DNA of 27,036 nt from a virus. How positions within the stretch are numbered: position 1 is the first letter of the stretch; every line of letters starts with the position of its first letter. The stretch is taken from positions 1-27,036 of IMG/VR virus record IMGVR_UViG_3300044911_002105. One strand, given 5' to 3'. Made by a program: the position numbers and the translations under genes. Under the pieces are notes generated by a model. It saw only the letters and a list, made by a program, of their open reading frames with translations, did no database searches and was not told the origin of the DNA. Below, piece after piece: positions 8,160-22,105 of this stretch.

Positions 8160-8173
8160 GTGTTGTTCCTTGC

Positions 8174-9178
8174 TCAGAAGTTCCGTCCGGTGATCATCGA
8201 ATCCATGTTCGACATTGGGGTTGACATTGCTTTTCCGATCTTCTTCCCGATCAGTCCGATCTGCTTGGCAGACTTCACTATGTTCTTGCCTGTGAAGATC
8301 GATTTGCGCTTTCGCTTTGGCTTGTTGATGTTGAGAAGCCTACCGAAGTTCTCACTCACCTGCTCTGGAAGACCTTGCCATCCGAAAGCGGAGTAGCCAT
8401 GCTTTGCTTTTCTGGCATCGCTCCTTCTCTTCTGCCTAACATTCATTGCCGCAACCTCTCCCTTTCCACCAGAGAGTCGTGCGTTTCGCGCCATCTTCCT
8501 CTTGAAGGAACGCTTCATGAAGTCCGCGACCTCTGGCTTCATGTCGTTGTCGGACTGAATTGCCTTGCGGGTGATTCTCAACCGCTTTGCCTGATAGCCC
8601 TCGTTCACTTTCGCTCCAGTCACCTTGGTTCCATCGGGCATCTTCCAGTATCCCTTCGCAGCCTTTCCTGGCTTGCGTGGAGCGGTAGAGACCCAAACGG
8701 CTCCCTTCTTCTTGGCTTCCTTCACCCTTGCTCTTCCCGCAGCATCGATCCTCTTCCATGCATCCCGCATTTCACCTGTGTAATCCGTGGCTTCCTTGAT
8801 TGGCTTCGGATCGCGGGGAGACTTCTTGCCGTCTTCCCTGCTGCGGATGGACTTGCCGACGAATCTGCTTCTTCCTAGCATCGCAGGAACATTGGCATAG
8901 TAACCGCCTGGATCATTGATGGCATCTCTGACTGACTCAGGATCGGTTCCACCCCTGCGCAGCATTGCAGCCTCTCTGGCTTTCATCCTTGTAGCATACC
9001 TGTCTTCGGCATTCTTGAGCGTAGCGTAGTCCTTGTTCGGATTGATTCCTGCCAGTGCCTTGATAATCTTGGACCGAGTCGCTTCAGCGATCTTGTCCTT
9101 GGAGACGAAGAGACGGGTCTCGGAATCCCTTCCTTCTGGGCTGATGGTCTTGAGGTGGTTTAGGAACAGGTTGTTCAT
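8174..9178 (-). CDS. Basic internal-protein candidate, 334 aa
   Basis: The start overlaps the upstream stop (ATGA at 9175-9178). The protein is Lys/Arg-rich. KDKIAEATRSK near residue 32 and PIKEATDYTG near residue 130 provide IAE/A and IKE/A prohead-protease-like sites. LRRGGTDPESVRDAI (near 74) recurs as LRRGGADPEVVRGHI in the 18447 gene product, so the cargo proteins share small modules. The segment GAVWVSTAPRKPGKAAKGYW (around 165-183) is Trp/Gly-rich and may be a small folded unit. No enzyme motif is visible. A packaged DNA-associated virion protein is inferred from composition, sites and neighbours. Confidence 0.72.
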   Translation of the reverse strand: MNNLFLNHLKTISPEGRDSETRLFVSKDKIAEATRSKIIKALAGINPNKDYATLKNAEDRYATRMKAREAAMLRRGGTDPESVRDAINDPGGYYANVPAMLGRSRFVGKSIRSREDGKKSPRDPKPIKEATDYTGEMRDAWKRIDAAGRARVKEAKKKGAVWVSTAPRKPGKAAKGYWKMPDGTKVTGAKVNEGYQAKRLRITRKAIQSDNDMKPEVADFMKRSFKRKMARNARLSGGKGEVAAMNVRQKRRSDARKAKHGYSAFGWQGLPEQVSENFGRLLNINKPKRKRKSIFTGKNIVKSAKQIGLIGKKIGKAMSTPMSNMDSMITGRNF

Positions 9179-10341
9179 GCTACTCCCTTCGAGCGCAATG
9201 CTGCTTGCTTCTTTGCTTGTGATGCGGCACGGTAGTCAAGGACTTTCTTGGGTATTACATGTTTGGCTCTGTATCCCTTGGTGATCGGACCCATGGAACC
9301 GGTCGCTTGGTGCGGATATGATCTATTTGCCCTTGTATCGTCGATGCGGGGATTCAGTCCTGTCTTGAGTCGTTCCTTCGTGAGTTTCTTGAGCCTCAGT
9401 TTCTGGACTCGTCCATGAGCCTTGATGACCTTTCCGTCCACGGTGGTTCCGGTGCGCTGCACGGCATACTTCCTAGCCTGTGCCTCTGCCTTCCTTGCCC
9501 TTCTCAGTTCCGCTTCGACAGCCTCCATGACGGGCTTCTTCTTGGTCTTGGGAGCAGCAGCGGGCTTCTCGACGGGAGCGAGTTTGTACTTGGGCATCCG
9601 CTTGATCTTGTTCGCATAGAACCGCGACTTCATCAGTTCGTCGAAAGTGAATCCGCCTCCGTGGACTTTGTTGAACTTGCGCTTGCTGATCTCGCCGCGA
9701 TGCACCTTGACGAGAAGATCAAGGGTTCTGTTCTGCTGGCGCTTGGCATCTGCCCTCAACGAGTTCTGCACTTCCCTATGGGCATCTGCGGACGACTGGA
9801 AGCCACCGCCCCATTCCTCGTTCGTCTGCCGCGCAAGTTCTGCCCTCTTCTTGGGATCGGGATGTGCCTTGATGTTGCCCAACTGCTCCTCGGCATCCTT
9901 CTTGTTCTCAAGCCAGGACTTCATTGCCTTCTTGTCGCCCTTCTTGTATGCCTTGCCGATCTCCTTCTTGGAACCCTTGACTGCCTTCTTGAGTTCTCCC
10001 TTGGAGTGGGCATAGGAACCCTCAGCCAACTGACGGTCGTGGTCGAAGATGCCCTCGACATCTTCGCTCATGGCATCGGTTGCCCGCTCTATTCCCTTGA
10101 GGCGGTTCTGGATCTTCTTCTGCGACCTCTTGAAACGCCACCGGCTAACATCGTCGAAATAATTGATTCTTTCGTGCTTGCGTGCTGCATTCACGGCATC
10201 CTTGGAAGCCTTCTTGATGTAGTTCCCATAGGTCTTCTTGCTCAACTCGTTCAACTGACGGTCGTGGTCGAAGATGCCCTCGAGTTGCTCGTTCATGGCA
10301 CGGGCGAGGTAAAGACGCTGCTGGATGTTCGGTGATCTCAT
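9175..10341 (-). CDS. Basic internal-protein candidate with duplicated EGIFDHDRQL motif, 388 aa
   Basis: Start at 10341, with AGGAG upstream and the candidate promoter CATAGATA at 10364-10371. Residues 20-30 and 96-106 repeat EGIFDHDRQL. The first copy continues as NELSKKTYGNYIKKASKDA, a motif I recognise from many T4-like phage virion or prohead proteins (usually LDELSKKTLGSYIKKA). The second continues as AEGSYAHSKGELKKAV, giving a QLAE/G site. KKPVMEAVEAELRRA near residue 270 gives another (VME/A). The rest is basic and helical. The repeat is near-exact at DNA level (10027-10058 and 10252-10283). A packaged core or internal protein is the best reading; no enzymatic domain is seen. Confidence 0.75.
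   Translation of the reverse strand: MRSPNIQQRLYLARAMNEQLEGIFDHDRQLNELSKKTYGNYIKKASKDAVNAARKHERINYFDDVSRWRFKRSQKKIQNRLKGIERATDAMSEDVEGIFDHDRQLAEGSYAHSKGELKKAVKGSKKEIGKAYKKGDKKAMKSWLENKKDAEEQLGNIKAHPDPKKRAELARQTNEEWGGGFQSSADAHREVQNSLRADAKRQQNRTLDLLVKVHRGEISKRKFNKVHGGGFTFDELMKSRFYANKIKRMPKYKLAPVEKPAAAPKTKKKPVMEAVEAELRRARKAEAQARKYAVQRTGTTVDGKVIKAHGRVQKLRLKKLTKERLKTGLNPRIDDTRANRSYPHQATGSMGPITKGYRAKHVIPKKVLDYRAASQAKKQAALRSKGVA
10027..10058. repeat. 32-bp direct repeat, copy 1 (EGIFDHDRQL motif)
   Basis: Identical over 32 bases to 10252-10283, 225 bases apart and in the same frame, inside one gene. It encodes the duplicated EGIFDHDRQL peptide. Near-perfect DNA identity suggests a recent duplication or ongoing exchange. 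Confidence 0.85.
10252..10283. repeat. 32-bp direct repeat, copy 2 (EGIFDHDRQL motif)
   Basis: Second copy of the repeat at 10027-10058, in the first 30 codons of the same gene. Confidence 0.85.
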
Positions 10342-10363
10342 TTCATTCTCCTGTAGTTCCTGA

Positions 10364-10371
10364 TATCTATG
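10364..10371 (-). promoter_or_regulatory. Candidate late promoter (CATAGATA) before the 10341 gene
   Basis: CATAGATA on the minus strand ends 22 bases before the ATG and partly overlaps the TAG stop of the upstream gene. An AGGAG ribosome site follows. Confidence 0.55.
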
Positions 10372-12379
10372 ATTTCCTAGGGTGACGGATCACCAGGTGC
10401 GAGTGCATCGCCGCTCCATGTTCTCCACGGAACCTCTGCGATGCGGGAAGATAGCCAGGCGTTCCCTTGGATCGGGGTATCTTCACCTCGGATGCCCATA
10501 TCTGCTTGTCTGGCACATCATGTGCGGGAACCTCCTTGCCCTGCGAGACATGGAAGACCTTCCCCTTCATCCTCGGATCCTTGCGGATCCTGTTCCATAC
10601 GGAAGCACCGCCCGGACTCTGTAGATCACTGCTCTTCAGGCTTCCATGCTTCCGTGCGAGGTGCTTGTATGCAAGCACGGCAAGGGACTTTCCGATCTTC
10701 TTGCGCGTGTGGTCGCCGTGTATCTGCGTGTGAAGCACGGTATGGGTCTTGTCCTTTCCATGAAGCATGGTGGTCACCTCACCGGCAATGTGGTTCGTCG
10801 CATCATGGACGATGTAGTGGTCTTGGGACATTCCGCCCATGTCGTCGTTCACCTTGTCACTGTGGAGGCTGTATCCCTTGGCAATCCTTCCCGATCTCTT
10901 CGTGTTTCCCTTTGCCGCGATGCGGGAGAAGTCGCGATGGTATCCACCGCTGGGCTTCACCAAGAGGTTTGCCATCTCTATGTCCTCCCGCACGACCTTC
11001 TTCCTTGGCTTTGGCTTCGCATGGAGGACAAGGGTCTTCTCCTGCGCCGAAGGATGCTCCTGCCAGATGTCATCGAAGGAAACCTTGTGCGCGGGATATG
11101 CCTTGTTGTCCCTCTCGTCATGGAACTTGACATGATCCTTCACATCCGGATCCCGCCTCAGCGTGTCCCACAGATGCGCACCGCCGATGCTCTGCCTTGT
11201 GTCGCTCTTGATGGAATGTCCACGCGAGTGGAGGTGCTTGTAGGCAGCAACGGCAAGAGACTTGCCGATCTCCTTGCGCGTGTGGTCGGAATGGACACCG
11301 ACCCAGTCGATCTTCAATCCCTTGCCGATTCCCGGCTTGTGTTCGCCCGTCTTCCTGTCGATCTTTCCTGCGGTGGCATCTATCTCGCCAGCGACATCCT
11401 TGGTCTTCTTGTGGACGATTGTGTACCTGTGGCTCATCACCGTCCTGTCGCCGTTCCATGGAACGGCGATCTTGTGTACATGCATCTCATATCCAGGATG
11501 GATCTCCCCGAGGTTCCTGTGTCCCGCGTATCTATACGATACGCCTTTGACCAAGGGGAAGGACTTCTTCCTGTCGGCATAGGTCTTGGTGTACTTCTGA
11601 TGCAGCATATTCTCCGATGGTTCGATGTATGGATCCACCTCAGGAGCCTCTCCTATGAACTCCATGAAGGAGATGAAGCCCTCCTTGACGGGCTTTCTCA
11701 GCCTGGACTGAGACTTCGCTATCGCCGAGAGGTACTTGTTCTTGTCGGCTGAGGCTGGCATGAGTGCATGGGCAAGTTCCGTGTCCCCGCTGCGGACTGC
11801 CTTCCTCAGGTGTCCTGCCTTGGCGACCGTGAGGTCTCCGCTCTTCAGCCTCTTGAGCAGTTCGTTCCTTTTCAGCGGTCTCTCGTCCCTCTTCTCCCCC
11901 ATCTGCTTGAAGGAGAGTTTCACGGGATGCACCTTGCCGTCCTGGTCTAGCATTCCGCCGTGCTTCCGCACATGACGCTCAAGGCTTCCCTTCAGACCCT
12001 TCTTGCCCATCTGGTCGGATCCAAGACCGACCGTGATGTGGGTGTGACCCTTCTTGGCAAGATGGAGAACCTGATGGAACGGGGTGGAATGCTGCTTTGG
12101 AAGGACTCCGAACCTGATCCCCTTGACCTCCGAGGACAGATGCCTGTGCGATGCCCTGATGACTCCGCGCTTCTGCGCATGGGTGAGGGGGGCATCCTCG
12201 CTCTTCTCCGATGCGCCTATGCCGTGGTAGATGTGGGTGTGTCCCGTGTCCCGTGCATGGACTGCGGCATGACGAGCCATCTCCTCATGACCCACGGTGT
12301 AGGGATTGAAGGCTCCCGTCAGGAGGAATGCCTTCCTGGGCTTCGCTGCCTCCGTGATGATGGGTCGTATCTCTATCAT
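10367..12379 (-). CDS. Multidomain virion protein: nucleotidyltransferase plus two GNAT-like domains
   Basis: 670 aa from the ATG at 12379. MIEIRPIITEAAKP gives a capsid-targeting-like N-terminus with an ITE/A site at residue 10. Residues 17-125 look like an HxGH-family nucleotidyltransferase (NMNAT/cytidylyltransferase fold): GAFNPYTVGH at 22-31, with VGLGSDQ at 117-123. The ISSTxxR signature is not evident. A second targeting-like motif, SFMEFIGEA, lies at 237-245. Residues 295-420 and 505-610 are homologous copies of a GNAT acetyltransferase-like domain: VHSDHTRKEIGKSLAVAAYK at 362-381 and HGDHTRKKIGKSLAVLAYK at 554-572. Both are followed by SD..QS.GG...W. The acetyl-CoA loop is degenerate. 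No convincing ribosome site precedes 12379. An upstream Met at 12427 is possible but has none either. Confidence 0.8.
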   Translation of the reverse strand: MIEIRPIITEAAKPRKAFLLTGAFNPYTVGHEEMARHAAVHARDTGHTHIYHGIGASEKSEDAPLTHAQKRGVIRASHRHLSSEVKGIRFGVLPKQHSTPFHQVLHLAKKGHTHITVGLGSDQMGKKGLKGSLERHVRKHGGMLDQDGKVHPVKLSFKQMGEKRDERPLKRNELLKRLKSGDLTVAKAGHLRKAVRSGDTELAHALMPASADKNKYLSAIAKSQSRLRKPVKEGFISFMEFIGEAPEVDPYIEPSENMLHQKYTKTYADRKKSFPLVKGVSYRYAGHRNLGEIHPGYEMHVHKIAVPWNGDRTVMSHRYTIVHKKTKDVAGEIDATAGKIDRKTGEHKPGIGKGLKIDWVGVHSDHTRKEIGKSLAVAAYKHLHSRGHSIKSDTRQSIGGAHLWDTLRRDPDVKDHVKFHDERDNKAYPAHKVSFDDIWQEHPSAQEKTLVLHAKPKPRKKVVREDIEMANLLVKPSGGYHRDFSRIAAKGNTKRSGRIAKGYSLHSDKVNDDMGGMSQDHYIVHDATNHIAGEVTTMLHGKDKTHTVLHTQIHGDHTRKKIGKSLAVLAYKHLARKHGSLKSSDLQSPGGASVWNRIRKDPRMKGKVFHVSQGKEVPAHDVPDKQIWASEVKIPRSKGTPGYLPASQRFRGEHGAAMHSHLVIRHPRKS

Positions 12380-12452
12380 GCAACTATACCTATTCCCTCT
12401 TGATCCTCGTTCATCGAGGCATACCAATGCTCGGTCACATCGAATCCGCCGA

Positions 12453-13700
12453 TCAAGCCGTCCACGGTCGGATATTGATCGTTTCTTGCTTTGTGCCTTC
12501 CTTGCGGTTCAAGTCCGACCATCCCTTTGCCTCCCTTGCGGTCTTGGCTACATGGAGTTCCCTGTTGTTGTGCCAGTCGTACACCGTCCACCCACGCTTG
12601 CCCTGCCTCTCGACGGAGTGGCTTCCCTTCGTCCATCGACGGCGACCAAGTGCGCGGCTGTGCTGCCACCCATCCTTCGTTTCCCTGTTGTACAAGGACT
12701 CTCGGATCCTGACCTTGGTCTTCAATGCAGTAGAACCTTCATACGAGGAAGGATCGATCATCGGATCCTCATCGTGCATTCTGGCATCCTCGGTTCCAAC
12801 GACATCGACCTTCAGCCTTCTCCTTGCGGACTTCCTGAGGTTTGCAATCGGGAACTTGATGACATGGATGTGTTCGTAGTCGCGCTCATCCACCTCGCGC
12901 TTGCGGCGATTGACCGCATGGGCAGTCTGGTCTTTCCAGTAGTTCACGCCATGATGGTTGGTCACGAATGCATGACCACGGGTATGAAGATCCAACGACG
13001 GGTAGTTGGTGCGTCCCTTCGGACTTCTTGGCTTCAGACCGCCCTTGACGATCTTGGCGGCTCTTGATGCCGTGGTCACATGGTAGACATACTTCTGCTT
13101 CTCTGAGTTTGGCATCTCATGGAAGTCATGTGCATATGACCAGTTCTCAAGCAGATTTCCCTGTCCATCGTGGATCTTGTACTTAGGATATGCCCTGGCG
13201 ATGGTTCTGATTGCGGATGATTGTGGTGACATTCCGCGATGGTCGTATGAGATGATCCCACCGCCACCCTCATGGTGTTCGATGCGCCCTTGCCCTATGA
13301 TATCGTCCTCCCTCACCTTTACTGCTATCTTCTTGTTGACCTTCACTCCCTTGCGCTTGCTACCTCCACCATCAAGGACATCATGATGGGTAGTGTCTCC
13401 GATTGCGGGGTGGGTGATGATTCCATGCTGCTTGTGCATGAAGAGGAGATCCGATGTTCCCTTGCGCCTCTTGCCGAAGACCTTCTCCTTCATGGCTTCG
13501 ATTGCCTTGGATGTTCCGTACCTGACACCGGGGTTGTGACCGATCAACCGCCAGTCCCTATTTCCGCCACGGAGATTCGAGGTGACCTTTGAGTGCAACA
13601 CCTGGTTGAACTTGTCGGCAAACTCAGCCTTCTCCTTGCGAGTGGGCTTCTTCCTTGTGGCAACTGCCGCCTCAGTGATGAACTGCTCGTAGGTCTTCAT
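12453..13700 (-). CDS. Capsid-targeted protein with possible ADP-ribosyltransferase-like domain, 415 aa
   Basis: It begins MKTYEQFITEAAVA; eight of the first eleven residues match T4 IPI/IPIII (MKTYQEFIAEA). This is the clearest capsid-targeting signal in the window, with cleavage expected after Glu10. Residues 203-250 read KYVYHVTTASRAAKIVKGGL...HAFVTNHHGVNYW. The YH(V/G)T, then AxxIxxxGLxP, then strand pattern fits ADP-ribosyltransferase/RNA 2'-phosphotransferase-like folds (His207). T4 packages the ADP-ribosyltransferase Alt the same way, but the catalytic Glu is not located here, so this is a hypothesis. The C-terminus (345-400) has a small Trp-rich unit (WTVYDWHNNRELHVAKTARE). Start overlaps the upstream stop by ATGA. 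Confidence 0.8.
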   Translation of the reverse strand: MKTYEQFITEAAVATRKKPTRKEKAEFADKFNQVLHSKVTSNLRGGNRDWRLIGHNPGVRYGTSKAIEAMKEKVFGKRRKGTSDLLFMHKQHGIITHPAIGDTTHHDVLDGGGSKRKGVKVNKKIAVKVREDDIIGQGRIEHHEGGGGIISYDHRGMSPQSSAIRTIARAYPKYKIHDGQGNLLENWSYAHDFHEMPNSEKQKYVYHVTTASRAAKIVKGGLKPRSPKGRTNYPSLDLHTRGHAFVTNHHGVNYWKDQTAHAVNRRKREVDERDYEHIHVIKFPIANLRKSARRRLKVDVVGTEDARMHDEDPMIDPSSYEGSTALKTKVRIRESLYNRETKDGWQHSRALGRRRWTKGSHSVERQGKRGWTVYDWHNNRELHVAKTAREAKGWSDLNRKEGTKQETINIRPWTA

Positions 13701-14323
13701 CGCTTCTTCTTCCCCTTCAGCACCAATGTCACCCCAACGATTTTCTTTCCTTTTGAACCCTCGCTGCTGCTGGAGCGTATTCCCTTCTTTGCGGCTCGGT
13801 CACGAGTAAAGCCTGGACGAGATGTCCATATGTCTTGGGTCTTCATCTTGGATGCCTGACCGATGATCCGATTGTTGCGAACTACATGGACATGCTTTCT
13901 GGTATCGGGATCCTTCCTGAGCGTGTTCCAGACGGATGCGCCACCAGGACTCTGTTGGGCGTCGCTATGCACATCGACACCCATCCCATGAAGGTGCTTG
14001 TACGCTGCCACGGCAAGCGAGTGACCTATCTTCTTCTTGGTGTGCTTCGGGTGGACGGAAATGCCATGGACTGCAAACCTCTTTGGCGATCCCTCGCCAT
14101 CTATCCTGCCAATCACCTTCTTTGTCTTGTCATGGGTGATGAACATAACATTATCGCCCTCCCTGTGCAACGAATAGTCCTTGTGTATCTTCCCGATGTT
14201 CATGATCTTGTCGTCCCTTTCGGTCCTTTCGGCTTTGAACACACGATTGGCGTGGTGCGCATCGAAGCCACCAGCAACGCCAATCAGATCGATGTCTTCC
14301 CGAAGTTGAGTGTAGGTTTTCAT
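13697..14323 (-). CDS. Capsid-targeted GNAT-like protein, 208 aa
   Basis: N-terminus MKTYTQLREDIDLIG resembles the T4 internal-protein signal, with a less typical LRE/D site. Residues 45-150 match the two GNAT-like domains of the 12379 gene product. The core is SVHPKHTKKKIGHSLAVAAY, then DAQQSPGGASVWNTLRKDPD. The basic tail ends GSKGKKIVGVTLVLKGKKKR. It starts one base after the upstream TGA, with GAGG as ribosome site. If active it would acetylate an amine on a host target at infection. The acceptor is unknown, and the acetyl-CoA-binding signature is weak (TKKKIG rather than RxxGxG/A). Confidence 0.8.
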   Translation of the reverse strand: MKTYTQLREDIDLIGVAGGFDAHHANRVFKAERTERDDKIMNIGKIHKDYSLHREGDNVMFITHDKTKKVIGRIDGEGSPKRFAVHGISVHPKHTKKKIGHSLAVAAYKHLHGMGVDVHSDAQQSPGGASVWNTLRKDPDTRKHVHVVRNNRIIGQASKMKTQDIWTSRPGFTRDRAAKKGIRSSSSEGSKGKKIVGVTLVLKGKKKR

Positions 14324-14324
14324 T

Positions 14325-14693
14325 TCATTCCTCGTAGAACTTTTCGTTGTCTGCTCCGTACATGCGGATCAACCTTCCCGCGACTGCATTTGCCTCGTCC
14401 TCGCACGGAGATCCCGTCTCCCCGTCTAGTTCGTCCCCGTTCTCGTCCTGCATCTGGTGCACCAGTTCATGGGCAATCGAACGGCACACATCGAATGTGG
14501 CTCGGTTGCCTCCCACGACCCGTATGGTCGAGTCGGATGGAGAGTAGGATGCGGTGGTCATGCCTTCCTGACGGGTCGGGACGATCTCCACATTCGGTGC
14601 GTTCCTCAACCCGAGTTTCCTCGAGGCGAACTGCACGAAGTCGTTGATCGTGGCTTCGTTCTGCTCGGAGATGTATTGCCTGTAGGACTTCAT
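14325..14693 (-). CDS. Capsid-targeted zinc metalloprotease-like protein (HELVH), 122 aa
   Basis: MKSYRQYISEQNEATIND: targeting-like N-terminus with a YISE/Q site at residue 10. A compact zincin core follows. HELVH at residues 75-79 is the zinc-binding HExxH. CEDEANAVAGRLIRMYG from residue 97 offers the third ligand (Glu98 or Glu100). VEIVPTRQEGMTTASYSPSD (35-54) and TIRVV (56-60) are the expected strands before the helix. The size is that of a minimal gluzincin-like domain, as seen in other marine T4-like phages. All catalytic residues are present, so activity is plausible; the substrate is unknown. It overlaps the upstream stop by ATGA and is flanked by other targeted proteins. Confidence 0.85.
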   Translation of the reverse strand: MKSYRQYISEQNEATINDFVQFASRKLGLRNAPNVEIVPTRQEGMTTASYSPSDSTIRVVGGNRATFDVCRSIAHELVHQMQDENGDELDGETGSPCEDEANAVAGRLIRMYGADNEKFYEE

Positions 14694-15820
14694 CTTGTCT
14701 CGCTTCCTTCCGGTGGTCTGTACTTGATCCTGACCACTGGCTTCTTCACCCTGCGGTTTCTGGCATTGGATTCCTCCCTTGACCTTGCCTCAGCCCCACT
14801 CCTGCGCTCCATCTCCTTCATGGATCGGGCAGCAGCCTCGGGGGTGCTGAAGTCGAGTGGGACGAATGCGTTCTCCTTGAGGGTTCCGACCTTGTGACCC
14901 TTCTTCTTTGCCATGTCGAGCGTGATGTGGCTTGGCTCGAGGAACTCCTTGTTCACATTGAACTGGGCTGTCAGGCTCCTTGATGCTGGCTTGCCATCCT
15001 TTGCGCTCTTGTGGGTCTTGACCCTGTGACGCACGGAAAGGACATCCCCGTTCGTCGCTGCATGGTGGTCGATGTGGTCTCCGATGTACGGGATCCCCGT
15101 CTTCTTGGATACATGGGGATGCAGTGAGTATACGCCATGCCCAGCGATGTGGACCAAGTCGTTGTTGTTCATGGTCTTCCTGAGGATCCTGGCTGCATGG
15201 TGAGCGGAAACCTCAAGATGGACATGGAGTTCCTTCTTCTTTCCACGGACATGCTCGATGTGGCTTTCCTTTCCGCTTCCCTTGGGCTTCCCGAAGTGGC
15301 TGTGCGCGATCTCGTCCACCTTGAGTCCATGGAGAGTCTTGGCTATTGCCCTGCCAGCATTGACTTCCCTGACCTTGTCGGCATGAGCGTTGACCTTCTT
15401 GTTCCAAGACTTCCTCTGCTTGGGAGTCATTGAGTCCGGATGAACCTTCGGGACAGGACGCGGGGGAACTTCCTCTGCCCTGTAGTGCCATCCCTTCTTG
15501 GAATGGTATCGCAACCCGACCTGACCGAAGGCTGCTCCCTTCTCCTTCAGTTCCATGGAATAGGGCTTGCCTCCGATGTTGACCGATGCATCCGAACCTC
15601 TTCCCGACAGGCTGCTTCCCTTGCCTCCGACACCGGACTTCTTCAGCATGGCTATCTTCTTTGCTTCGCCGCTCTGCCCAAGGTTCCTAGCCTCCATGAT
15701 CTCAGCCATCTCGGAGACGAATGTCTCGTAGGTCTTGCCGCTCTTTGAGTCCCTCTGCGGTGTCTGCGGGAATATGCGGAGCGTGTCCTCTGGAACCCTC
15801 TTGGTCTTCTTCGGTTTCAT
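14690..15820 (-). CDS. Capsid-targeted protein with PD-(D/E)XK-like core, 376 aa
   Basis: The start at 15820 overlaps the upstream TGA and has AAGGGA upstream. The frame continues upstream to 16195 but only as antisense-like sequence over real genes. The targeting-like motif is internal: SGKTYETFVSEMAEIMEARN at residues 27-46, with IME/A at 41-44. Residues 77-105 read DASVNIGGKPYSMELKEKGA then AFGQVGLRY. Asp77, E90-L-K92 and Gln100 suit a PD-(D/E)XK nuclease core with its motif IV Gln. The middle (about 150-260) is His/Lys-rich with ELHVHLEVSAHHAARIL and VHIAGHGVYSLHPHV. The tail is basic. Nuclease activity against host DNA is an inference. Some defence systems are DNA-targeting enzymes, so other roles exist. 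Confidence 0.75.
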   Translation of the reverse strand: MKPKKTKRVPEDTLRIFPQTPQRDSKSGKTYETFVSEMAEIMEARNLGQSGEAKKIAMLKKSGVGGKGSSLSGRGSDASVNIGGKPYSMELKEKGAAFGQVGLRYHSKKGWHYRAEEVPPRPVPKVHPDSMTPKQRKSWNKKVNAHADKVREVNAGRAIAKTLHGLKVDEIAHSHFGKPKGSGKESHIEHVRGKKKELHVHLEVSAHHAARILRKTMNNNDLVHIAGHGVYSLHPHVSKKTGIPYIGDHIDHHAATNGDVLSVRHRVKTHKSAKDGKPASRSLTAQFNVNKEFLEPSHITLDMAKKKGHKVGTLKENAFVPLDFSTPEAAARSMKEMERRSGAEARSREESNARNRRVKKPVVRIKYRPPEGSETR

Positions 15821-16134
15821 TTCTTTCCCTTCTCCGTGTGCCAAGCCACATGCTGGTGGGCATGGTTGATCGCGTCGTTCATGGTCTTGTGGGTCTGATG
15901 GACTTCGGGAACCTCTATGGGAGTTCCGTTCGTAGCGGCAAATCTTCCAGCGACATAGCCCCATCCGCCCATGCGGTTCCATCCCTTGCGGACGAAGCCG
16001 TTGATTCCACGGTGGCTGTACCTCCATGTGTCGCCGTCGATCTTCTGGATGTACGCAGGATGTCCGCTCGGCTTGATCTTCACATATCTGCCGCTGCTGG
16101 AGCCTTCCGCGAGATAGTCCTTGAATGACATCAT
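15817..16134 (-). CDS. Small capsid-targeted protein, 105 aa
   Basis: MMSFKDYLAEGSSS is a targeting-like N-terminus with a YLAE/G site. Removing it would leave about 94 residues rich in Trp, Gly and His. Among these are GRYVKIKPSG, HPAYIQKIDGDTWRY and WNRMGGWGYVAGRF. This looks like a small strand-rich folded domain, followed by a helix (TMNDAINHAHQHVAWHTEK). Two adjacent ATGs are possible starts; the first overlaps the TGA of the upstream gene. No function recognised. Confidence 0.75.
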   Translation of the reverse strand: MMSFKDYLAEGSSSGRYVKIKPSGHPAYIQKIDGDTWRYSHRGINGFVRKGWNRMGGWGYVAGRFAATNGTPIEVPEVHQTHKTMNDAINHAHQHVAWHTEKGKK

Positions 16135-16865
16135 CGGGTTTTGTAGAGCCTTCCCGTCCTGCCTCCCCTGCTTGCCGCACGGGAGCGGATGCCAACCTCT
16201 CGGTAGTAGCGGGCGCGACCCTCGTCGCTCAGTGAGGCAATGCGCTTCCTTGTCTTGCCTCCGGTGGACTTGATCTCGCCCTTGGCATACATGTCGTATG
16301 GATCGACTCCCCTTGGCAACTTGGGCTTGGCTCGTCCCTCCGCTCCCCTGTTGGGGTCGCTCTCCTTGATGTATCGCTTTGCCCTATCCTCGCTGCTCTT
16401 CTTCCTGTGGGCTTCCTTGGCGGGATCGACTGCCTTGGGCTTCTTTACCTTCTTGCCGTCGATGTCGTATGTCCATCCGCTAGCCCGCTCACGCTTATCG
16501 ACATTTACCAACTTATCATGTTGACGACGCAAATTCATACGCATTGTGTCTAACCCACCCAACGCACGCGATGAGATCGAGGCGTATGGCTCGGGAGTCA
16601 AAGCATCCACATGGAGCATCAGATCCGCCTGTTTATCCACTATCTGCTTCCGTCTTGCGGGAGTCTGAGCCATCTCCTCAAGTGCGTTCTCTATGAGTTC
16701 CCTTGCTTCGTTGTAGGACATCCTGCGCGAACTCATGATGCGCTTGACGGTGGATGCTTCCTTCCGCGCTGCCTTGGTTCCCTTGGACATGTACTTCCGA
16801 AGCAAGGTCTTGAGCCTCTGCATCGGGAGTTTCTCAAGGGTCTCTATGTTGTGTGATTCGTTCAT
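16131..16865 (-). CDS. Basic internal-protein candidate with MAQTP/GWTY repeat module, 244 aa
   Basis: Start placed at 16865 (MNESHNIETLEKL), five bases after the upstream stop with AAGG upstream. An in-frame ATG at 16886 overlaps the upstream gene more deeply and is the alternative. Residues 50-140 form one copy of a module found twice in the next upstream gene product: ARELIENALEEMAQTPARRK, a variable middle, then ASGWTYDIDGKKVKK. Large DNA blocks are identical between the two genes. The remainder is Lys/Arg-rich and ends in GGRTGRLYKTR. YIKESDPNRG offers an IKE/S site. A packaged, processed DNA-associated protein is inferred. Confidence 0.75.
   Translation of the reverse strand: MNESHNIETLEKLPMQRLKTLLRKYMSKGTKAARKEASTVKRIMSSRRMSYNEARELIENALEEMAQTPARRKQIVDKQADLMLHVDALTPEPYASISSRALGGLDTMRMNLRRQHDKLVNVDKRERASGWTYDIDGKKVKKPKAVDPAKEAHRKKSSEDRAKRYIKESDPNRGAEGRAKPKLPRGVDPYDMYAKGEIKSTGGKTRKRIASLSDEGRARYYREVGIRSRAASRGGRTGRLYKTR
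16450..16497. repeat. 48-bp direct repeat (GWTYDIDGKK module), copy 1
   Basis: Identical over 48 bases to 17483-17530 in the neighbouring gene. A diverged third copy is near 18212-18243. It encodes RERASGWTYDIDGKK. Confidence 0.85.
16616..16685. repeat. About 70-bp direct repeat (EMAQTPARRKQIVDK module), copy 1
   Basis: Nearly identical to 17634-17703. The part encoding EMAQTPxRRKQI also recurs at 18367-18411. It encodes the helical half of the repeated module. Confidence 0.8.
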
Positions 16866-16869
16866 GACC

Positions 16870-18447
16870 TTACCAATCGGCATCATTCCCCCGATCCATC
16901 AGGATTCGCTTGCTCTTTGCGTCGATGACCTGTAGTCCAGCACCCGATGGGTTGAGGTGGACTTCCCTGTCGGTTCCGTGGATCACATGGACATCGCGAC
17001 CCATGATGCGCTTTCTGGACACACGGACCTTCTTCTCCACGGTTCCACCGCCATGCTTGCGTCCGTAGAGGTTGACGGGTGAGCCATGAGGCTTGCTCTG
17101 TATCGCGGAGATGATGTCGTGCGCTACCTTCTGATTGTGCTTGATCGCTTCCGCAGGAGTGTCGAAGTCAGGCTTCTTGACTGCCACGATGCCGCGCTTG
17201 TCCGTCTTGCGCTTCATCAGCCTCTTGGTCGGATCGATGTGGGCAGGGATGTTCTCCGTTGGAGTCACGACCATCTTGGCAAAGGTTCCCCGCGCCCTGC
17301 CTTCGCGCTTCTCCTTTTCCAGTCTCTGCATGGTTTCCTTCGCTGCCTTCCTGCGCTGGATCAGACCCGACCGTCTGGCTGAGTCACCCGCGAGGATTGC
17401 CTCAACTACCGACTGCACTACGGGATTCGCGGCTTCCTCGGTGATCTTCTTCACCTTCTTGACCTTCTTGCCAAGCCTCAACTTCTTGCCGTCGATGTCG
17501 TATGTCCATCCGCTAGCCCGCTCACGCTTACCAACCTTTCCCAACGCACTGTGTTTGAGAATTAGGGAGGTGAAGTCGGAAGTGAAGTTTGGATACGGCA
17601 CTGGAAGATCTAGGGGCATAGCATTCGCTTGGCGCATCAGATCCGCCCGTTTATCCACTATCTGCTTCCGTCTTGCGGGAGTCTGCGCCATCTCCCCGAG
17701 TGCCGACTCCTTCAGGTCTCCGTGGATGCCGTCGAACATCATCTTGACCGCATCGACGCTGTGGCGCGGATGATCCATGAGGTGCTTGACCTTGTGCTTG
17801 GCAAGGGTGCTGGCGATGCTCTTGCCGCTCTGCTTCTCAGCCGAGCCACGCGACTTGATCTCGGAGACCGCTCCCTTCGGGAGTTTCTCTATCCAGTCGT
17901 GCATCATGTCCTTGACGGCTCCTTCGTTGATCTTCTTAGCCTTCTTGCCAGCGGCACGGCGGATGTCTGATCCAGCGCCGAAGCGATGTAAATAAGCGTA
18001 TGCCTTGTAGTCGTCTGGTGTAAATCCCCTAGCATCTCCTCTGTTCAGTGCCGCAAGCCTGTCGATATGACCACGCACAACCTCTGGATCGGCTCCTCCT
18101 CGACGCAGTTCGGCAGCCCTGCGCTGAAGTTTCCTCTGTTGAGACTTCTCTTTGTCCTTGACGGCTCCTTCGTTGATCTTCTTAGCCTTCTTGCCAAGCC
18201 CCATACGCAACTTTTTGCCGTCGATGCCGTATGTCCATCCGCTGCGCTTTTCTCCCCACTCTGCCTTATCCAATTTATGGAGTTCGGGGTAAAGTTTCCG
18301 GAGAGCCTCAATGTCGGACGAATGCGTACTATACAGTTTATTGAGGAGTTCCTTCCGTTGACCATGTATCTGCTTCCGTCTTGAAGGAGTCTGAGCCATC
18401 TCCTCAAGTGCCTCTTCAATCAGTTCCCGTGCTTGCCTGTAGTTCAT
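16870..18447 (-). CDS. Repeat-built basic polyprotein-like internal protein, 525 aa
   Basis: Start at 18447, with AAGGAAAAG upstream and candidate promoter CCTAGATA at 18508-18515. Residues 10-96 and 247-340 are two copies of a module: EEMAQTPSRRKQI or GEMAQTPARRKQI, a variable helical middle, and SGWTY(G/D)IDGKKLR, ending in KKAKKINEGAVKD or KKVKKITEEAANP. The KKAKKINEGAVKD ending occurs twice (87-98 and 169-180). Each copy ends at a possible prohead-protease site (NEG/A, TEE/A). LRRGGADPEVVRGHI matches a segment in the 9178 gene product. VVQSVVEAILAGDSARRSG (344-362) faintly resembles prohead-core segments of T4-like phages. It reads as a polyprotein of basic packaged peptides, but processing is inferred. 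Confidence 0.75.
   Translation of the reverse strand: MNYRQARELIEEALEEMAQTPSRRKQIHGQRKELLNKLYSTHSSDIEALRKLYPELHKLDKAEWGEKRSGWTYGIDGKKLRMGLGKKAKKINEGAVKDKEKSQQRKLQRRAAELRRGGADPEVVRGHIDRLAALNRGDARGFTPDDYKAYAYLHRFGAGSDIRRAAGKKAKKINEGAVKDMMHDWIEKLPKGAVSEIKSRGSAEKQSGKSIASTLAKHKVKHLMDHPRHSVDAVKMMFDGIHGDLKESALGEMAQTPARRKQIVDKRADLMRQANAMPLDLPVPYPNFTSDFTSLILKHSALGKVGKRERASGWTYDIDGKKLRLGKKVKKVKKITEEAANPVVQSVVEAILAGDSARRSGLIQRRKAAKETMQRLEKEKREGRARGTFAKMVVTPTENIPAHIDPTKRLMKRKTDKRGIVAVKKPDFDTPAEAIKHNQKVAHDIISAIQSKPHGSPVNLYGRKHGGGTVEKKVRVSRKRIMGRDVHVIHGTDREVHLNPSGAGLQVIDAKSKRILMDRGNDADW
17483..17530. repeat. 48-bp direct repeat (GWTYDIDGKK module), copy 2
   Basis: Identical to 16450-16497; encodes RERASGWTYDIDGKK in the 18447 gene. 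Confidence 0.85.
17634..17703. repeat. About 70-bp direct repeat (EMAQTPARRKQIVDK module), copy 2
   Basis: Nearly identical to 16616-16685, with only a few differences seen by eye. It begins the second module of the 18447 gene product. Confidence 0.8.
17908..17950. repeat. 43-bp direct repeat (KKAKKINEGAVKD), copy 1
   Basis: Identical over 43 bases to 18154-18196 in the same gene and frame. It encodes the basic module ending with the possible cleavage site NEG/A. Confidence 0.85.
18154..18196. repeat. 43-bp direct repeat (KKAKKINEGAVKD), copy 2
   Basis: Second identical copy of the repeat at 17908-17950. Confidence 0.85.
18367..18411. repeat. Partial third copy of the EMAQTP module repeat
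   Basis: About 45 bases encoding LEEMAQTPSRRKQI at the start of the 18447 gene. They match 16641-16685 with a few changes. The downstream part of the module has diverged. Confidence 0.75.
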
Positions 18448-18507
18448 TTGGTTCTTTTCCTTTTGTGTAGACGGAGCATCCCCGTGATTGTGGGAAATGC
18501 ATACGAG

Positions 18508-18515
18508 TATCTAGG
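18508..18515 (-). promoter_or_regulatory. Candidate late promoter (CCTAGATA) before the 18447 gene
   Basis: CCTAGATA on the minus strand ends 60 bases before the start at 18447, in the 80-base gap after the stop at 18528. The same octamer precedes the 19316 gene. Confidence 0.4.
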
Positions 18516-18527
18516 TTTTAGGGACGA

Positions 18528-18815
18528 TCAGCCATTGCCCCAGACCGTGCCACGGCGGGAGGCTGATCTCTCAAGGTTCTCACGGAACCGCTTGGGGACT
18601 CCCCGCGAGACCTTCTGCATGACTTCCTTGAAGTCCTTGCCAGGGGTCAGGTTCATGTCCACCGCAGCAGCGGGTGCGGATGTCCAGTCCCTCCGCACCT
18701 CTCTCTTGGAGCAGGAAGGGCATGGCTCCGAGCAGGGGGTGTCCCTATCGGAGATCGACTTCAACTGGTCGAACGCATGGTCGCACGAAGAGCATCGGTA
18801 TTCATAAACGGGCAT
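18528..18815 (-). CDS. FmdB-type zinc-ribbon protein, 95 aa
   Basis: Starts MPVYEYRCSSCDHAFDQLKS. Four cysteines form two CxxC knuckles (Cys8/Cys11 and Cys32/Cys35), as in the FmdB/CxxC_CxxC_SSSS small zinc-ribbon family. The family usually has the same MP.YEY.C..C opening. The Ala/Pro linker and helical C-terminus (residues 55-95, VMQKVSRGVPKRFRENLERS) are variable in the family. The start at 18815 is set by AAAGGAGGT upstream and by the family N-terminus; a longer frame to 18842 is rejected. Candidate promoter GATAGATA lies at 18844-18851. Such proteins are common in T4-like marine phages; regulatory or nucleic-acid binding is assumed, not shown. Confidence 0.87.
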   Translation of the reverse strand: MPVYEYRCSSCDHAFDQLKSISDRDTPCSEPCPSCSKREVRRDWTSAPAAAVDMNLTPGKDFKEVMQKVSRGVPKRFRENLERSASRRGTVWGNG

Positions 18816-18843
18816 GGTGTAAGACCTCCTTTGGTCGCACACC

Positions 18844-18851
18844 TATCTATC
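18844..18851 (-). promoter_or_regulatory. Candidate late promoter (GATAGATA) before the zinc-ribbon gene
   Basis: GATAGATA on the minus strand ends 28 bases before the ATG at 18815, followed by AAAGGAGGT. It lies in the short gap before the stop at 18855. Confidence 0.55.
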
Positions 18852-18854
18852 CCG

Positions 18855-19316
18855 TCACTCCCATGCCGAATCGTTGAGCCTCAGCCATGCGATGTAGGCA
18901 TTGGATCGCTTCCTGATGGCACGGTGGTTCGCAGGGATCCTCCACTCGCGCAGGATCGACCTCGCGTCCCTCTCCGTCCTCTTCTCAAGGGAGAAGTAGG
19001 AATCTCCCGAGATGTGGTCGCCCTCTCCCCCGAGCCACTCCTTGTCGCCCGACCTCCATTGGAGGAAATGGACATACTCATGGACTAGGTTCATCAGGAT
19101 GTTGATGGGCTTCCTGTTCCCCGTGCCGATGCGGATGATGCCCCACTTCTTCGCGGTGGGTTCCTGGAAGTATGCTGCCGTGAGGTTGGAGCCGTCGAAG
19201 CGCACCATGCGGGTGCGGGAGAAGACGAGCCTGACCCTGCTCTCCTTGAGTTCCGAACGGATGTGCGAAAGCAGCGACTTCGCTTCGGGGCTGTGGCGGG
19301 ACAATGTCCGTATCAT
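18855..19316 (-). CDS. Zincin metallopeptidase-like protein (HEYVH), 153 aa
   Basis: Residues 76-87 are MNLVHEYVHFLQ, a zinc-binding HExxH helix (His79, Glu80, His83). A Glu in SLEKRTERDARSIL (Glu111 or Glu116) suits the third ligand. The upstream strands (VRLVFSR, LTAAYFQ, WGIIRIG) fit a minimal gluzincin fold. No targeting signal or secretion signal is visible, unlike the other HELVH protein at 14325-14693. The start is ATG 19316 with GGAGG eight bases upstream; an in-frame GTG at 19325 would overlap that ribosome site. Candidate promoter CCTAGATA is at 19338-19345. Substrate unknown. Confidence 0.8.
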   Translation of the reverse strand: MIRTLSRHSPEAKSLLSHIRSELKESRVRLVFSRTRMVRFDGSNLTAAYFQEPTAKKWGIIRIGTGNRKPINILMNLVHEYVHFLQWRSGDKEWLGGEGDHISGDSYFSLEKRTERDARSILREWRIPANHRAIRKRSNAYIAWLRLNDSAWE

Positions 19317-19337
19317 CAGTCGCACCTCCGTTCGATC

Positions 19338-19345
19338 TATCTAGG
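19338..19345 (-). promoter_or_regulatory. Candidate late promoter (CCTAGATA) before the 19316 gene
   Basis: CCTAGATA on the minus strand ends 21 bases before the ATG at 19316, with GGAGG between. It is identical to the octamer before the 18447 gene. Confidence 0.5.
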
Positions 19346-19348
19346 GCT

Positions 19349-19627
19349 TTAGCGGATCTTTTTCAGCACAATGCCAAGACCCATGAGGGAAAGCAAGAAC
19401 AGGACGGCAGACAGAGCCACAATGTGCGGGTAGAGCGGAATGAGGATTGCCCACCATGACCATTGCAGACCCCCGAACAACTTCATGCTGAGGAGGACAG
19501 ACCCTCCGAACAGGAGCATGTATCCGTTCATCCCTGCAAGGAAGAAGGACATGAACTTTCCGAACTTCGTGAAGAACCTCACGAATGGGTGATTGTCGTA
19601 TTCCTGATCGGTCATTTGTTTCATCAT
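19349..19627 (-). CDS. Small membrane protein with two predicted transmembrane helices, 92 aa
   Basis: MMKQMTDQEYDNHPFVRFFTKF is a charged N-terminus. Two hydrophobic segments follow at roughly residues 28-48 (FFLAGMNGYMLLFGGSVLLS) and 60-87 (AILIPLYPHIVALSAVLFLL and SLMGLGIV), ending in KKIR. A short Trp-rich loop (GGLQWSWW) joins them. The start at 19627 overlaps the upstream TGA, with AGGA upstream. Size and topology would suit a holin or another small inner-membrane protein. No lysis genes are adjacent, so no function is assigned. Confidence 0.75.
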   Translation of the reverse strand: MMKQMTDQEYDNHPFVRFFTKFGKFMSFFLAGMNGYMLLFGGSVLLSMKLFGGLQWSWWAILIPLYPHIVALSAVLFLLSLMGLGIVLKKIR

Positions 19628-19953
19628 CTGTCCTGATCGTAACCCATCTTCCTCAGTTCGTTCCAGATCTCTCTTGCCTTTTTCACGCTCACGGTCATCA
19701 CGGCACGGTCGGAGTCGAGTCCAGCAAACCCATGGCTGTTCAGGCTGATATATGTCCATGCCTCTACGGACGGATCCACCCCGTAGGACCAGATGTTCAC
19801 GCGCTCGTAGTCTCCGGACTCATAATCTACCGGAGTGAAGCGAATCTTGCGAGATTGTGAAGTATGCCTTGTCTTCATCTTCTTGATGAAGAGGTACTCG
19901 GGGTTGTGGAGTACCCATTCGTTGTTGTCCATCGGTTTGTCCATCGGTTCCAT
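19624..19953 (-). CDS. ARxxW-family small protein, 109 aa (array member 1)
   Basis: C-terminus VSVKKAREIWNELRKMGYDQ gives the clearest form of the array motif: A-R-x-x-W-x-x-L-x-x-x-G-Y. Ahead of it lies a strand-rich body (KIRFTPVDYESGDYERVNIW, WTYISLNSHG). The N-terminus is longer than in other members (NNEWVLHNPEYLFIKKMK). Start at 19953 is supported by GAGG four bases upstream. It is the last gene of the array, overlapping the membrane-protein gene by ATGA. No known domain recognised. Confidence 0.78.
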   Translation of the reverse strand: MEPMDKPMDNNEWVLHNPEYLFIKKMKTRHTSQSRKIRFTPVDYESGDYERVNIWSYGVDPSVEAWTYISLNSHGFAGLDSDRAVMTVSVKKAREIWNELRKMGYDQDR

Positions 19954-19964
19954 CTTACCTCAAT

Positions 19965-20327
19965 TCAGTATTCAGTCCAGGATGCCATCCCAAGCCGCAC
20001 AAGTTCATCGTTGGACAAACCATCCATGCACTTCCAGCCTGGAACGCACTTCTTGGTTGAACCTGTCAGGTATCTCCACAGATGCCTGGCATCCTCCTTG
20101 TCCATGTTGATCCCTGCCGGAGGAATGTCTAAGAAACAGGTCTCCGAATGCACCACCCTGTAGGGAACCGTACCCCATTCCTCGGGGAGGTCCAAGACCT
20201 TCCTGAAGACCTTGACAACGACATCGGTGGGAATCCCATGCGTGTCATCGACCACGGTGAAAACCATCACCACGGTGTTCGTCGGGTCATGGATCTTGTG
20301 ATGACTGACAAGCCCTTCGTACTTCAT
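19965..20327 (-). CDS. ARxxW-family small protein, 120 aa (array member 2)
   Basis: Starts MKYEGLVSHHKIHD at the ATGA overlap (20324-20327); a longer frame to 20363 would run into the upstream gene. The body is strand-rich (TVVMVFTVVDDT, DVVVKVFRKVLDL). The family motif NMDKEDARHLWRYLTGS lies near residues 83-100. It is followed by an unusual 30-residue extension (CVPGWKCMDGLSNDELVRLG) that ends SWTEY. This is one of the few members with added sequence after the motif. Function unknown. Confidence 0.76.
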   Translation of the reverse strand: MKYEGLVSHHKIHDPTNTVVMVFTVVDDTHGIPTDVVVKVFRKVLDLPEEWGTVPYRVVHSETCFLDIPPAGINMDKEDARHLWRYLTGSTKKCVPGWKCMDGLSNDELVRLGMASWTEY

Positions 20328-20554
20328 CCCTTCACCCACCCATGGGATGTGATGTCCCTCCACAAGGCACGGGCTTCCTCCTTGGTGAAGCGTCTATCTG
20401 TAGTGATCATCGCGGTGCGGGAATCCCATCGCCATATGGTCTGTTCCTTGCCATTCCAGAAATAGCGGATGCTCATGGAGTCCTCGCCCTCGACCGTGAA
20501 CCGAATGATCATGTTGGGAAGAGTGTTGTGCGCGATCAGATCGTATGTGGTCAT
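20324..20554 (-). CDS. ARxxW-family small protein, 76 aa (array member 3)
   Basis: MTTYDLIAHN at the ATGA overlap (20551-20554). Typical short member: strands MIIRFTVEGEDSMSIRYFW and TIWRWDSRTAMITTD, then the motif FTKEEARALWRDITSHGWVK at the C-terminus. It aligns by eye along its whole length with the members at 20751-21023 and 21264-21494. Confidence 0.78.
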   Translation of the reverse strand: MTTYDLIAHNTLPNMIIRFTVEGEDSMSIRYFWNGKEQTIWRWDSRTAMITTDRRFTKEEARALWRDITSHGWVKG

Positions 20555-20787
20555 GACATCCATCCAATCGACACCAGATACTTCCACATCTGCCGCGCCT
20601 CATCCTTGCTCAACTCCGTGGTCGGGGTCATCTTCCTACAATCAAGGATCCAATGCTCCATCCGTTGGTTGCCGTACATGAACTCAAGCGTCACCATTCC
20701 TGCGTCATGAACATGGAATTCCATGACGGCATCCATGGGGAACATTCTGGTCAACAGGTGGTCTGATCGCAACTTGTATATGGGCAT
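20551..20787 (-). CDS. ARxxW-family small protein, 78 aa (array member 4)
   Basis: MPIYKLRSDHLLTRM aligns with MKRYELRSEPDCRAM of the next member, so the start at 20787 is kept. This is despite a 37-base overlap with the upstream gene and a weak ribosome site. The body VMEFHVHDAGMVTLEFMYGN matches the family strand pattern (FFVHGDGSVTTEY in the neighbour). Ends LSKDEARQMWKYLVSIGWMS. Confidence 0.77.
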   Translation of the reverse strand: MPIYKLRSDHLLTRMFPMDAVMEFHVHDAGMVTLEFMYGNQRMEHWILDCRKMTPTTELSKDEARQMWKYLVSIGWMS

Positions 20788-21023
20788 GGCTTGTATCCGA
20801 TTGAACGCAAAAGGTTCCAGATCTTTCGGGCATCTTCCTTGTCGAACTTCGTGTCAGGACTTATGAAACGATTCCCGATGTCTAGTATACCGTAGTGATT
20901 AAAGTGCCATGTTTTCTGTTCCTTGCCACCAACCAAGTATTCCGTGGTCACTGATCCATCACCATGGACGAAGAACCGCATAGCGCGACAGTCGGGTTCG
21001 GATCTCAGTTCATACCGCTTCAT
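20751..21023 (-). CDS. ARxxW-family small protein, 90 aa (array member 5)
   Basis: MKRYELRSEPDCRAMRFFVH, GDGSVTTEYLVGGKEQKTWH, then the motif FDKEDARKIWNLLRSIGYK. A short Cys-containing extension (PCPYTSCDQTTC) follows. GGGAGG lies about nine bases upstream of the ATG. It overlaps the preceding gene by 14 bases. Confidence 0.78.
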   Translation of the reverse strand: MKRYELRSEPDCRAMRFFVHGDGSVTTEYLVGGKEQKTWHFNHYGILDIGNRFISPDTKFDKEDARKIWNLLRSIGYKPCPYTSCDQTTC

Positions 21024-21267
21024 ACTCTACAGCCTCCCTTGGGGGAACACGAACCCAACCTTGCTCCACAAGCGTCCACCAGAACTCACGCGCCCTCGCC
21101 TTGGTGAAGCCCTGTAGATCCCTGAAGACCTCTTCATCCACCGTCCAGTTCATCGCTGCCTTGCCATCGGGGTAGAAGAACCTGGCTGTCACGATGTCAC
21201 GGTCTCGGTAGGCAAGGAAGACGATGACATCCCCGTCCTTGTGAAGTTCGTATCTGTCGAAGATCAT
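21010..21267 (-). CDS. ARxxW-family small protein, 85 aa (array member 6)
   Basis: MIFDRYELHKDGDVIVFLAY, TARFFYPDGKAAMNW, then FTKARAREFWWTLVEQGWVR and a tail PPREAVEYEAV. The start at 21267 overlaps the upstream TGA and has AAGGAGGT seven bases upstream, which decides against the longer frame to 21309. Confidence 0.78.
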   Translation of the reverse strand: MIFDRYELHKDGDVIVFLAYRDRDIVTARFFYPDGKAAMNWTVDEEVFRDLQGFTKARAREFWWTLVEQGWVRVPPREAVEYEAV

Positions 21268-21494
21268 CCCTTGACCTCCTTCCATCCACAGTTCCTCAGT
21301 GTCCTCCATATCCTCCGTGCATCCTCCTCGGTGAACCTAATGGTCGGTTCGATTCTCATTCCGATGACGAACCATATGGACTGTTTCCTGTCATCGACCG
21401 AGTACTCCATCGTCACGGCTCCATCGCCATGGACGAGGAACACCATCAGGAAATCTCCGTCAAACGACTTGAACCTCAGTTCGTGCCTCTTCAT
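21264..21494 (-). CDS. ARxxW-family small protein, 76 aa (array member 7)
   Basis: MKRHELRFKSFDGDFLMVFL, VHGDGAVTMEYSVDDRKQSI, then FTEEDARRIWRTLRNCGWKE at the end. It is closely similar to the member at 20751-21023 (VHGDG.VT.EY...KQ..W is shared), which indicates duplication. Ribosome site AGGAGG upstream; ATGA overlap. Confidence 0.79.
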   Translation of the reverse strand: MKRHELRFKSFDGDFLMVFLVHGDGAVTMEYSVDDRKQSIWFVIGMRIEPTIRFTEEDARRIWRTLRNCGWKEVKG

Positions 21495-22056: not shown

Positions 22057-22105
22057 GGGCGGTCAGACCATGATAGCAGGATTGCGTTCGCAGTCAATGG
22101 GAACA

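Follow-up and report, generated by a model that had tools for sequence, protein, structure and literature searches.

A block of genes with predicted capsid-targeting N-termini

The stretch of DNA analysed here (the window) is the 27,036-base IMG/VR virus fragment IMGVR_UViG_3300044911_002105, and our subject is a series of its genes whose products begin with peptides resembling the capsid-targeting sequence (CTS) of phage T4 internal proteins. Five adjacent genes at 12453-16134, all on the minus strand, had been proposed from their sequence to share such N-termini and to encode a varied set of packaged proteins. A canonical T4 CTS does stand at the N-terminus of three of the five: a 415-residue protein (12453-13700; MKTYEQFITE/AA, a slash marking the predicted cut position here and below), which continues with a lineage-specific insert, an unconfirmed ADP-ribosyltransferase (ART)-like HxT domain and a C-terminal domain; a 122-residue predicted zincin metallopeptidase with the motif HELVH..E (14325-14693; MKSYRQYISE/QN); and a 105-residue basic protein with no assigned function (15817-16134; MMSFKDYLAE/GS). 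The other two deviate. A 208-residue GNAT acetyltransferase-like protein (13697-14323; N-terminus MKTYTQLREDIDL) has the variant tag MKTYTQLRE(D), with L, R and D at residues 7, 8 and 10 of MKTYTQLREDI, and a 376-residue basic protein with no assigned fold (14690-15820) has the CTS-like motif KTYETFVSE at residues 29-37, a placement that the original prediction had marked as internal. The coupling described between neighbouring genes holds at three of the four junctions, which are 4-bp overlaps, the remaining one being a 1-bp gap; the junction with the upstream gene 16131-16886 is also a 4-bp overlap.

Genes were called with a simple codon-usage caller made for this analysis, which missed a RuvC-like gene at 3524-4084. 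The window has two close relatives, G002 (156,618 bp), its nearest long relative, and G004 (92,788 bp). Since the major capsid protein of G002 shares 54-55% identity with its counterparts in Pelagibacter, Methylophilales and Synechococcus T4-like phages, we place the window in a T4-like lineage near these aquatic ones; known phages gave no megablast match to window positions 8000-20000.

Tags fit the T4 sequence and are retained as protein bodies change

The strict protein pattern ^M[KM][TSR][YF]..[FLY][LIVM].E is found at 3, 3 and 4 N-termini among the called genes of the window, G002 and G004 respectively, compared to 0.000, 0.0017 and 0.0007 when residues 2-41 are shuffled, while a DNA-level pattern, ATGAARNNNTWYNNNNNNTWYNTNNNNGAR, gave 20 matches in 9 genomes and none in its backwards control. 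Mutational analysis of the T4 IPIII CTS has assigned residues 4 and 7 mainly to targeting and residues 8 and 10 to processing, with Asp at position 10 blocking cleavage and leaving targeting intact (PMC9026906). The canonical window tags agree with this map at all four positions, which upholds the likeness to T4 that had been claimed for them. In the D10 variant of 13697-14323 a cut after E9 (LRE/D) is possible, as the G004 orthologue begins MKTYRQLLEDI and a virion-detected S-SZBM1 nucleotidyltransferase (NTase) has a similarly short tag (MRFRQFIIEA). Comparison of the N-terminal peptides alone with PHROG gave weak matches (E-values 0.005-0.3), at profile position 1, to families annotated as "internal head/virion protein", the best match being to an unnamed family (5e-4).

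The zincin, ART-like and 105-residue genes all retain their CTS in G002 and G004, where the bodies behind it have diverged. The orthologues of the 105-residue protein are 57% identical to it and start with MKSFNQFISES and MKSFSQFLTEAS, and the ART-like gene presents a natural domain swap, in which the CTS and the ART-like domain are common to all three orthologues and the ~150 residues between them are present only in the window, being missing from G002 and G004. Zincin relatives at 72-73% identity keep the CTS; among distant zincins, several show no tag that can be recognised as a CTS, whereas a tagged one, 28% identical, is encoded by a distant virus. For 14690-15820 our search found no viral relatives, and the placement of its internal motif is similar to that in virion-detected S-CREM2 ORF12.

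Predicted cleavage sites extend the block to 15 genes

Sites of the gp21 type ([LIVMF]xE/[AGS]) were counted over the called genes, with a reversed motif and an E-to-D motif as controls. By this measure the span of the five genes is too narrow, as the site-rich module covers 4086-18447 and comprises 15 mostly very basic genes, 2.5-fold enriched in such sites. The module has 36 sites in the window against 14.6 +/- 3.7 in shuffled sequences, 35 against 13.2 in G002 and 36 against 13.3 in G004, and in each of the three none of 500 shuffles reached the module count. The rest of the genomes is at or near expectation (observed/expected 15/11.4 in the window, 149/142.9 in G002 and 88/76.3 in G004). 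Neither control motif showed a comparable, consistent excess across the three genomes, though G002 has more reversed motifs than expected in its module (25 versus 13.4), the only module of which this is true, and more E-to-D motifs in the remainder of its genome (216 versus 163). The five tagged genes, considered as the sole holders of the excess, were rejected in this role (4 sites versus 3.5 expected); the other ten module genes have 32 sites versus 11.1 expected. Because the excess sits in these ten genes, we propose two cargo classes, and read the first as discrete folded proteins or enzymes with a single N-terminal CTS and the second as basic multi-site polyproteins. Of the 15 module proteins, 13 have an isoelectric point (pI) of ~9.7 or more, the exceptions being the zincin (4.7) and the product of 5974-6399 (5.3).

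The ten further genes are likewise on the minus strand. Two of them, encoding a 525-residue basic multi-site protein (16870-18447; leader MNYRQARELIEE/A, 5 sites versus 1.8 expected) and a 251-residue basic protein (16131-16886; MMPIGKVMNE/S), have repeats in common. The 670-residue product of 10367-12379 appears to be a polyprotein of the order NTase-GNAT-GNAT, with sites ITE/A (8) and VKE/G (231) and, between domains, the CTS-like FMEFIGE/A (site at 242), an internal CTS-like site being present in G002 (MSFAEFVSE) and G004 (MSFLDFIGE) as well. A 388-residue basic protein (9175-10341) has the leader MRSPNIQQRLYLARAMNE and repeated LxE motifs, while the leader of a 334-residue basic protein (8174-9178; MNNLFLNHLKTISPEG..IAE/A, 4 sites versus 0.8 expected) is also found on otherwise different proteins, its 33-35 residues matching G002 and G004 genes at 48-51%. 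These are followed by a 579-residue basic multi-domain protein (6420-8159; K+R 25%), a 141-residue protein (5974-6399) with LTE/S, VME/S and LDE/A near its N-terminus (4 sites versus 1.0), a 193-residue protein (5310-5891; MADSLSSSIARVLME/S, 3 sites versus 0.7, orthologues 53-54%), a very basic 161-residue protein (4828-5313; pI 10.7, orthologues 48-52%) and a 245-residue basic protein (4086-4823) with FVE/A near its N-terminus (4 sites versus 1.1). Further leaders common to otherwise different proteins, MNNxFLxHLxSITPxG..IxEA and MRYxxARxILxEA, end in or near sites, and paralogy is frequent within the block.

The protease expected to cut these sites is found in the nearest long relative, as G002 encodes gp21 (Peptidase_S77, E 3e-39), and sites of the same type are present in the capsid protein, scaffold and protease of G002 (gp22, 7 versus 2.9 expected; gp21, 4 versus 1.1).

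Identities of the cargo proteins

Two of the enzyme identities originally suggested are strengthened. We are confident in a zincin at 14325-14693 on the basis of its model: the Pfam M78 match (E=1.4e-3) is below cut-off, and the AlphaFold2 (AF2) model (pLDDT 88.6) has a minigluzincin/Wss1-type fold, matching Wss1, abylysin and selecase at Z 7.9-8.9 and also jannalysin, with H75, E76 and H79 of the HELVH motif and E98 invariant in 19 sequences. A second zincin-like protein without CTS, a paralogue with the motif HEYVH, is encoded at 18855-19316 (minus strand). The GNAT assignment of 13697-14323 is marginally over the Pfam gathering cut-off (Acetyltransf_1, 21.2 versus 20.7 bits), and this protein is paralogous to the GNAT halves of 10367-12379. 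An ADP-ribosyltransferase at 12453-13700 is plausible but unconfirmed: it is suggested by the HxT pattern and by a resemblance to the stand-alone PBS1 gp278 (27%, E 3e-3), whereas Pfam gave no ART match, PDB sequences gave no match, and the AF2 model, from a three-sequence alignment, was unusable (pLDDT 43). The nuclease-like character suggested for 14690-15820 is not borne out, with no convincing match in Pfam, PHROG or PDB sequences. For 10367-12379, PHROG indicates a cytidyltransferase (1.2e-5), and the NTase domain is homologous to virion-detected S-SZBM1_140 (1.4e-5), with no match among PDB sequences. Several effector domains in one polypeptide are apparent only in this protein, from weak domain matches; the five tagged genes are separate.

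Outside the module, a 254-residue protein with a KxDG motif (1150-1914, plus strand; PHROG_455, 5e-7) has the leader MKRYGELVE/S. Its G002 orthologue begins MSKSYERFLVES and a DUF6267 protein of another virus (L085) bears a CTS, so that 1150-1914 may, judging by its leader, be an additional cargo gene. The remainder of the window includes tandem overlapping small open reading frames (ORFs) of 76-132 residues at 20324-25418 (minus strand), several of them paralogous and forming two subgroups by blastp, which may be a family for early host takeover; a PHROG scan of four small ORFs within or adjacent to the series gave no convincing match. Two GIY-YIG homing-endonuclease-like ORFs, at 1-150 (minus strand) and 2839-3588 (plus strand), are 80% identical over 50 residues, the longer one having Lys-rich repeats, and 25432-26991 (minus strand) encodes a VWA/cobalamin-chelatase-like protein (PHROG_459, "peptidase").

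Tagged enzymes in other viruses and in purified virions

We scanned IMG/VR with a DNA pattern stricter than the one above and found at least 132 CTS-first genes, among them 117 full-length ones (60 residues or more) that fall into about 53 families. Pfam matches among the tagged genes listed were to CTP_transf_like (7), GNAT (3-4), lytic transglycosylase (3), zeta/AAA_33 (3), glucosaminidase (2), SAM lyase (1), PARP (1) and DUF6267 (1). There is also a weak match of one related, CTS-bearing ART to Pfam ART-PolyVal, and a tagged acetyltransferase occurs in S-CRM01. Among the listed records with tagged genes, gp21 is present in each of the four that reach at least 170 kb, as well as in the 247-kb one, and was not seen in most of the shorter ones.

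Published virion proteomes of T4-like cyanophages contain several such proteins. In S-CREM2, for which 52 particle proteins are listed (Table 3 of PMC10665884), virion-detected N-termini include those of a SAM hydrolase (MKDFDSFLEE), a kinase with a GTG start (KRFDAFLTE) and a cytidylyltransferase (MKNFSSFLTEA), and a Cas9-like virion protein has RFASFMAEA at residues 18-26, internal like the motif of window gene 14690; a text search of the paper brought up no mention of the CTS. The NMNAT of S-SCSM1 particles begins MKSFLQFLKEA, and T4-GC190 of P-SSM2 and S-SM2, from a cluster virion-detected in S-SM1, has a CTS-like start. With virion data for S-SZBM1 (PMC9146016) included, four of seven strict-CTS genes were detected in virions, versus 1.3 expected (P=0.025). 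A looser pattern gave five of seven detected in S-CREM2 (Fisher P=0.011) and was written after the N-termini were known, for which reason we rely on the strict one. Basic multi-site virion proteins resembling our second class also occur, namely S-SCSM1 ORF89 (L186:16358-17329; 5 sites versus 1.0) and S-CREM2 ORF155 (3 versus 0.7).

The cytidylyltransferase/NMNAT family (S-CREM2 ORF154, L178:24608-25468; T4-GC190) has matches in 526 phage records, and a CTS-like start is present in every example examined (S-CREM2, S-SCSM1, P-SSM2, S-SM2, S-CRM01 and S-SZBM1).

A probable cargo operon and the alternatives to it

These observations lead us to consider it highly probable that 4086-18447 is the cargo operon of a T4-like virus, encoding proteins of both classes that are loaded by their tags, cut by gp21 and delivered with the DNA. 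During head assembly, the cargo would bind the prohead core via its short N-terminal tags (CTS or related leaders), the shell would enclose it, a gp21-type protease would cut after [LIVMF]xE, and the cut cargo would remain with the packaged DNA and enter the host on infection. The first class would consist of the zincin, the GNAT, the ART-like protein and the two proteins without assigned fold, each with one N-terminal tag, and the second of large, mostly basic polyproteins cut into peptides or domains, one of them the NTase-GNAT-GNAT chain with a CTS-like site between its domains. The idea of a varied packaged cargo with T4-type tags is thus supported by the conservation of tags on changing bodies, by gp21 in G002 and by CTS-bearing enzymes in cyanophage virions. 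Packaging is likely in this virus, and its cleavage, ejection and action on host targets are what we infer from there.

Several points weigh against the cargo operon. This virus is known from DNA alone and the virion proteomes are those of other T4-like phages, whose authors allow that the enzymes may be co-purifying proteins. Tag and detection are not related one to one, strict-CTS genes having been detected in 3/3 cases in S-CREM2 (including the GTG-start kinase), 1/2 in S-SCSM1 and 0/2 in S-SZBM1. In addition, the 27-kb fragment itself has no gp21, the tag of 13697-14323 has D10, and the zincin, with an acidic pI of 4.7, differs in this from T4 internal proteins. The most serious alternative, which we regard as possible though unlikely, is that the module encodes parts of the prohead core or scaffold, structural proteins cleaved by gp21 that condense DNA and give the head its shape, with no need for them to enter the host or act there. 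The high basicity of most module proteins (pI about 10) and their many sites would suit this role, gp22 and gp21 of G002 likewise exceed their expected sites, and IPIII mutants of T4 slow head assembly (PMC9026906); however, a core role leaves unexplained why the same tags stand on a zincin, a GNAT and an NTase, and why bodies turn over fast behind fixed tags. For the multi-site class alone, a core or scaffold role may well hold.

It is less probable still that the packaged enzymes work inside the head rather than as effectors, with the zincin, for instance, serving as a second maturation protease with the task of clearing away core proteins or trimming the polyproteins. Zincin-like peptidases have been proposed to process the multidomain polypeptides of polyvalent proteins (PMC5512222), the window zincin is located among multi-site polyproteins, and gp21 lies close to the zincin gene in several distant zincin genomes, but the module sites are of the gp21 type with no zincin signature, and the untagged state of several distant zincins also speaks against this role. 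Finally, we find it very hard to credit that the common N-termini take no part in packaging and are mere remnants of recombination or duplication, or a regulatory peptide: the paralogy in the block would agree with this, yet such tags precede about 53 families among the listed IMG/VR matches, fit the T4 CTS position by position, and are borne by several enzymes detected in virions.

Should the cargo reading extend beyond this virus, for which we see roughly even chances, the CTS and gp21 would serve aquatic T4-like viruses as a general way of loading a large and exchangeable range of enzymes (NTase, GNAT, ART, zincin, SAM lyase, kinase and cell-wall hydrolases). Multi-site polyproteins would be loaded too and be divided by gp21, still within the head, into several effectors; various types of leader would be in use, and infection would open with many different injected enzymes. 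Enzymes have repeatedly been found in purified cyanophage particles, their authors leaving undecided whether these are cargo or contamination, and the CTS provides a sequence-level reason for the presence of several of them. The first ten residues thereby allow a virion-effector role to be predicted for many T4-like genes so far anonymous, and the tagged set is a catalogue of natural cargo for T4-type head loading.

Comparison with known systems

The window system probably works like, and belongs to, the T4 internal-protein system, widened to enzymes and multi-site polyproteins. IPI, IPII, IPIII and Alt of T4 share with it an N-terminal 10-residue CTS with aromatic residues at 4 and 7, a hydrophobic residue at 8 and Glu at 10 (PMC3012670, PMC9026906), a gp21-type protease (for the window, in its nearest long relative G002), a mostly basic character (13 of the 15 module proteins) and diverse bodies behind a conserved tag. 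The window differs in gathering about 15 genes into a single block, in encoding several enzyme folds that can be recognised as well as multi-site polyproteins, and in having extra leader types, one D10 tag and one internal tag. Polyvalent proteins (Iyer et al. 2017, PMC5512222) have an overlapping repertoire (ART, GNAT, zincin, NTases and kinases) that is delivered with phage or plasmid DNA. They form one giant chain, whereas the window has mostly separate CTS-tagged proteins, with processing predicted to be by gp21 and not a zincin, and an NTase of the cytidylyltransferase and not the Pol-beta type. The inner-body ejection proteins of phiKZ and SPN3US and the Dar proteins of P1 are also packaged, often protease-processed cargo, and a capsid signal stands at the N-terminus of P1 DarB (PMC5694885, PMC9024508), but SPN3US propeptides are much longer, and the cargo families and phage lineages are others. 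The T4-like cyanophages S-CREM2, S-SCSM1, S-SM1 and S-SZBM1 have enzymes in their purified particles, several with CTS-like N-termini, and an NTase homologous to that of 10367-12379; they have 1-2 strict CTS genes per genome, compared to 4 in both G002 and G004 in a DNA-level count.

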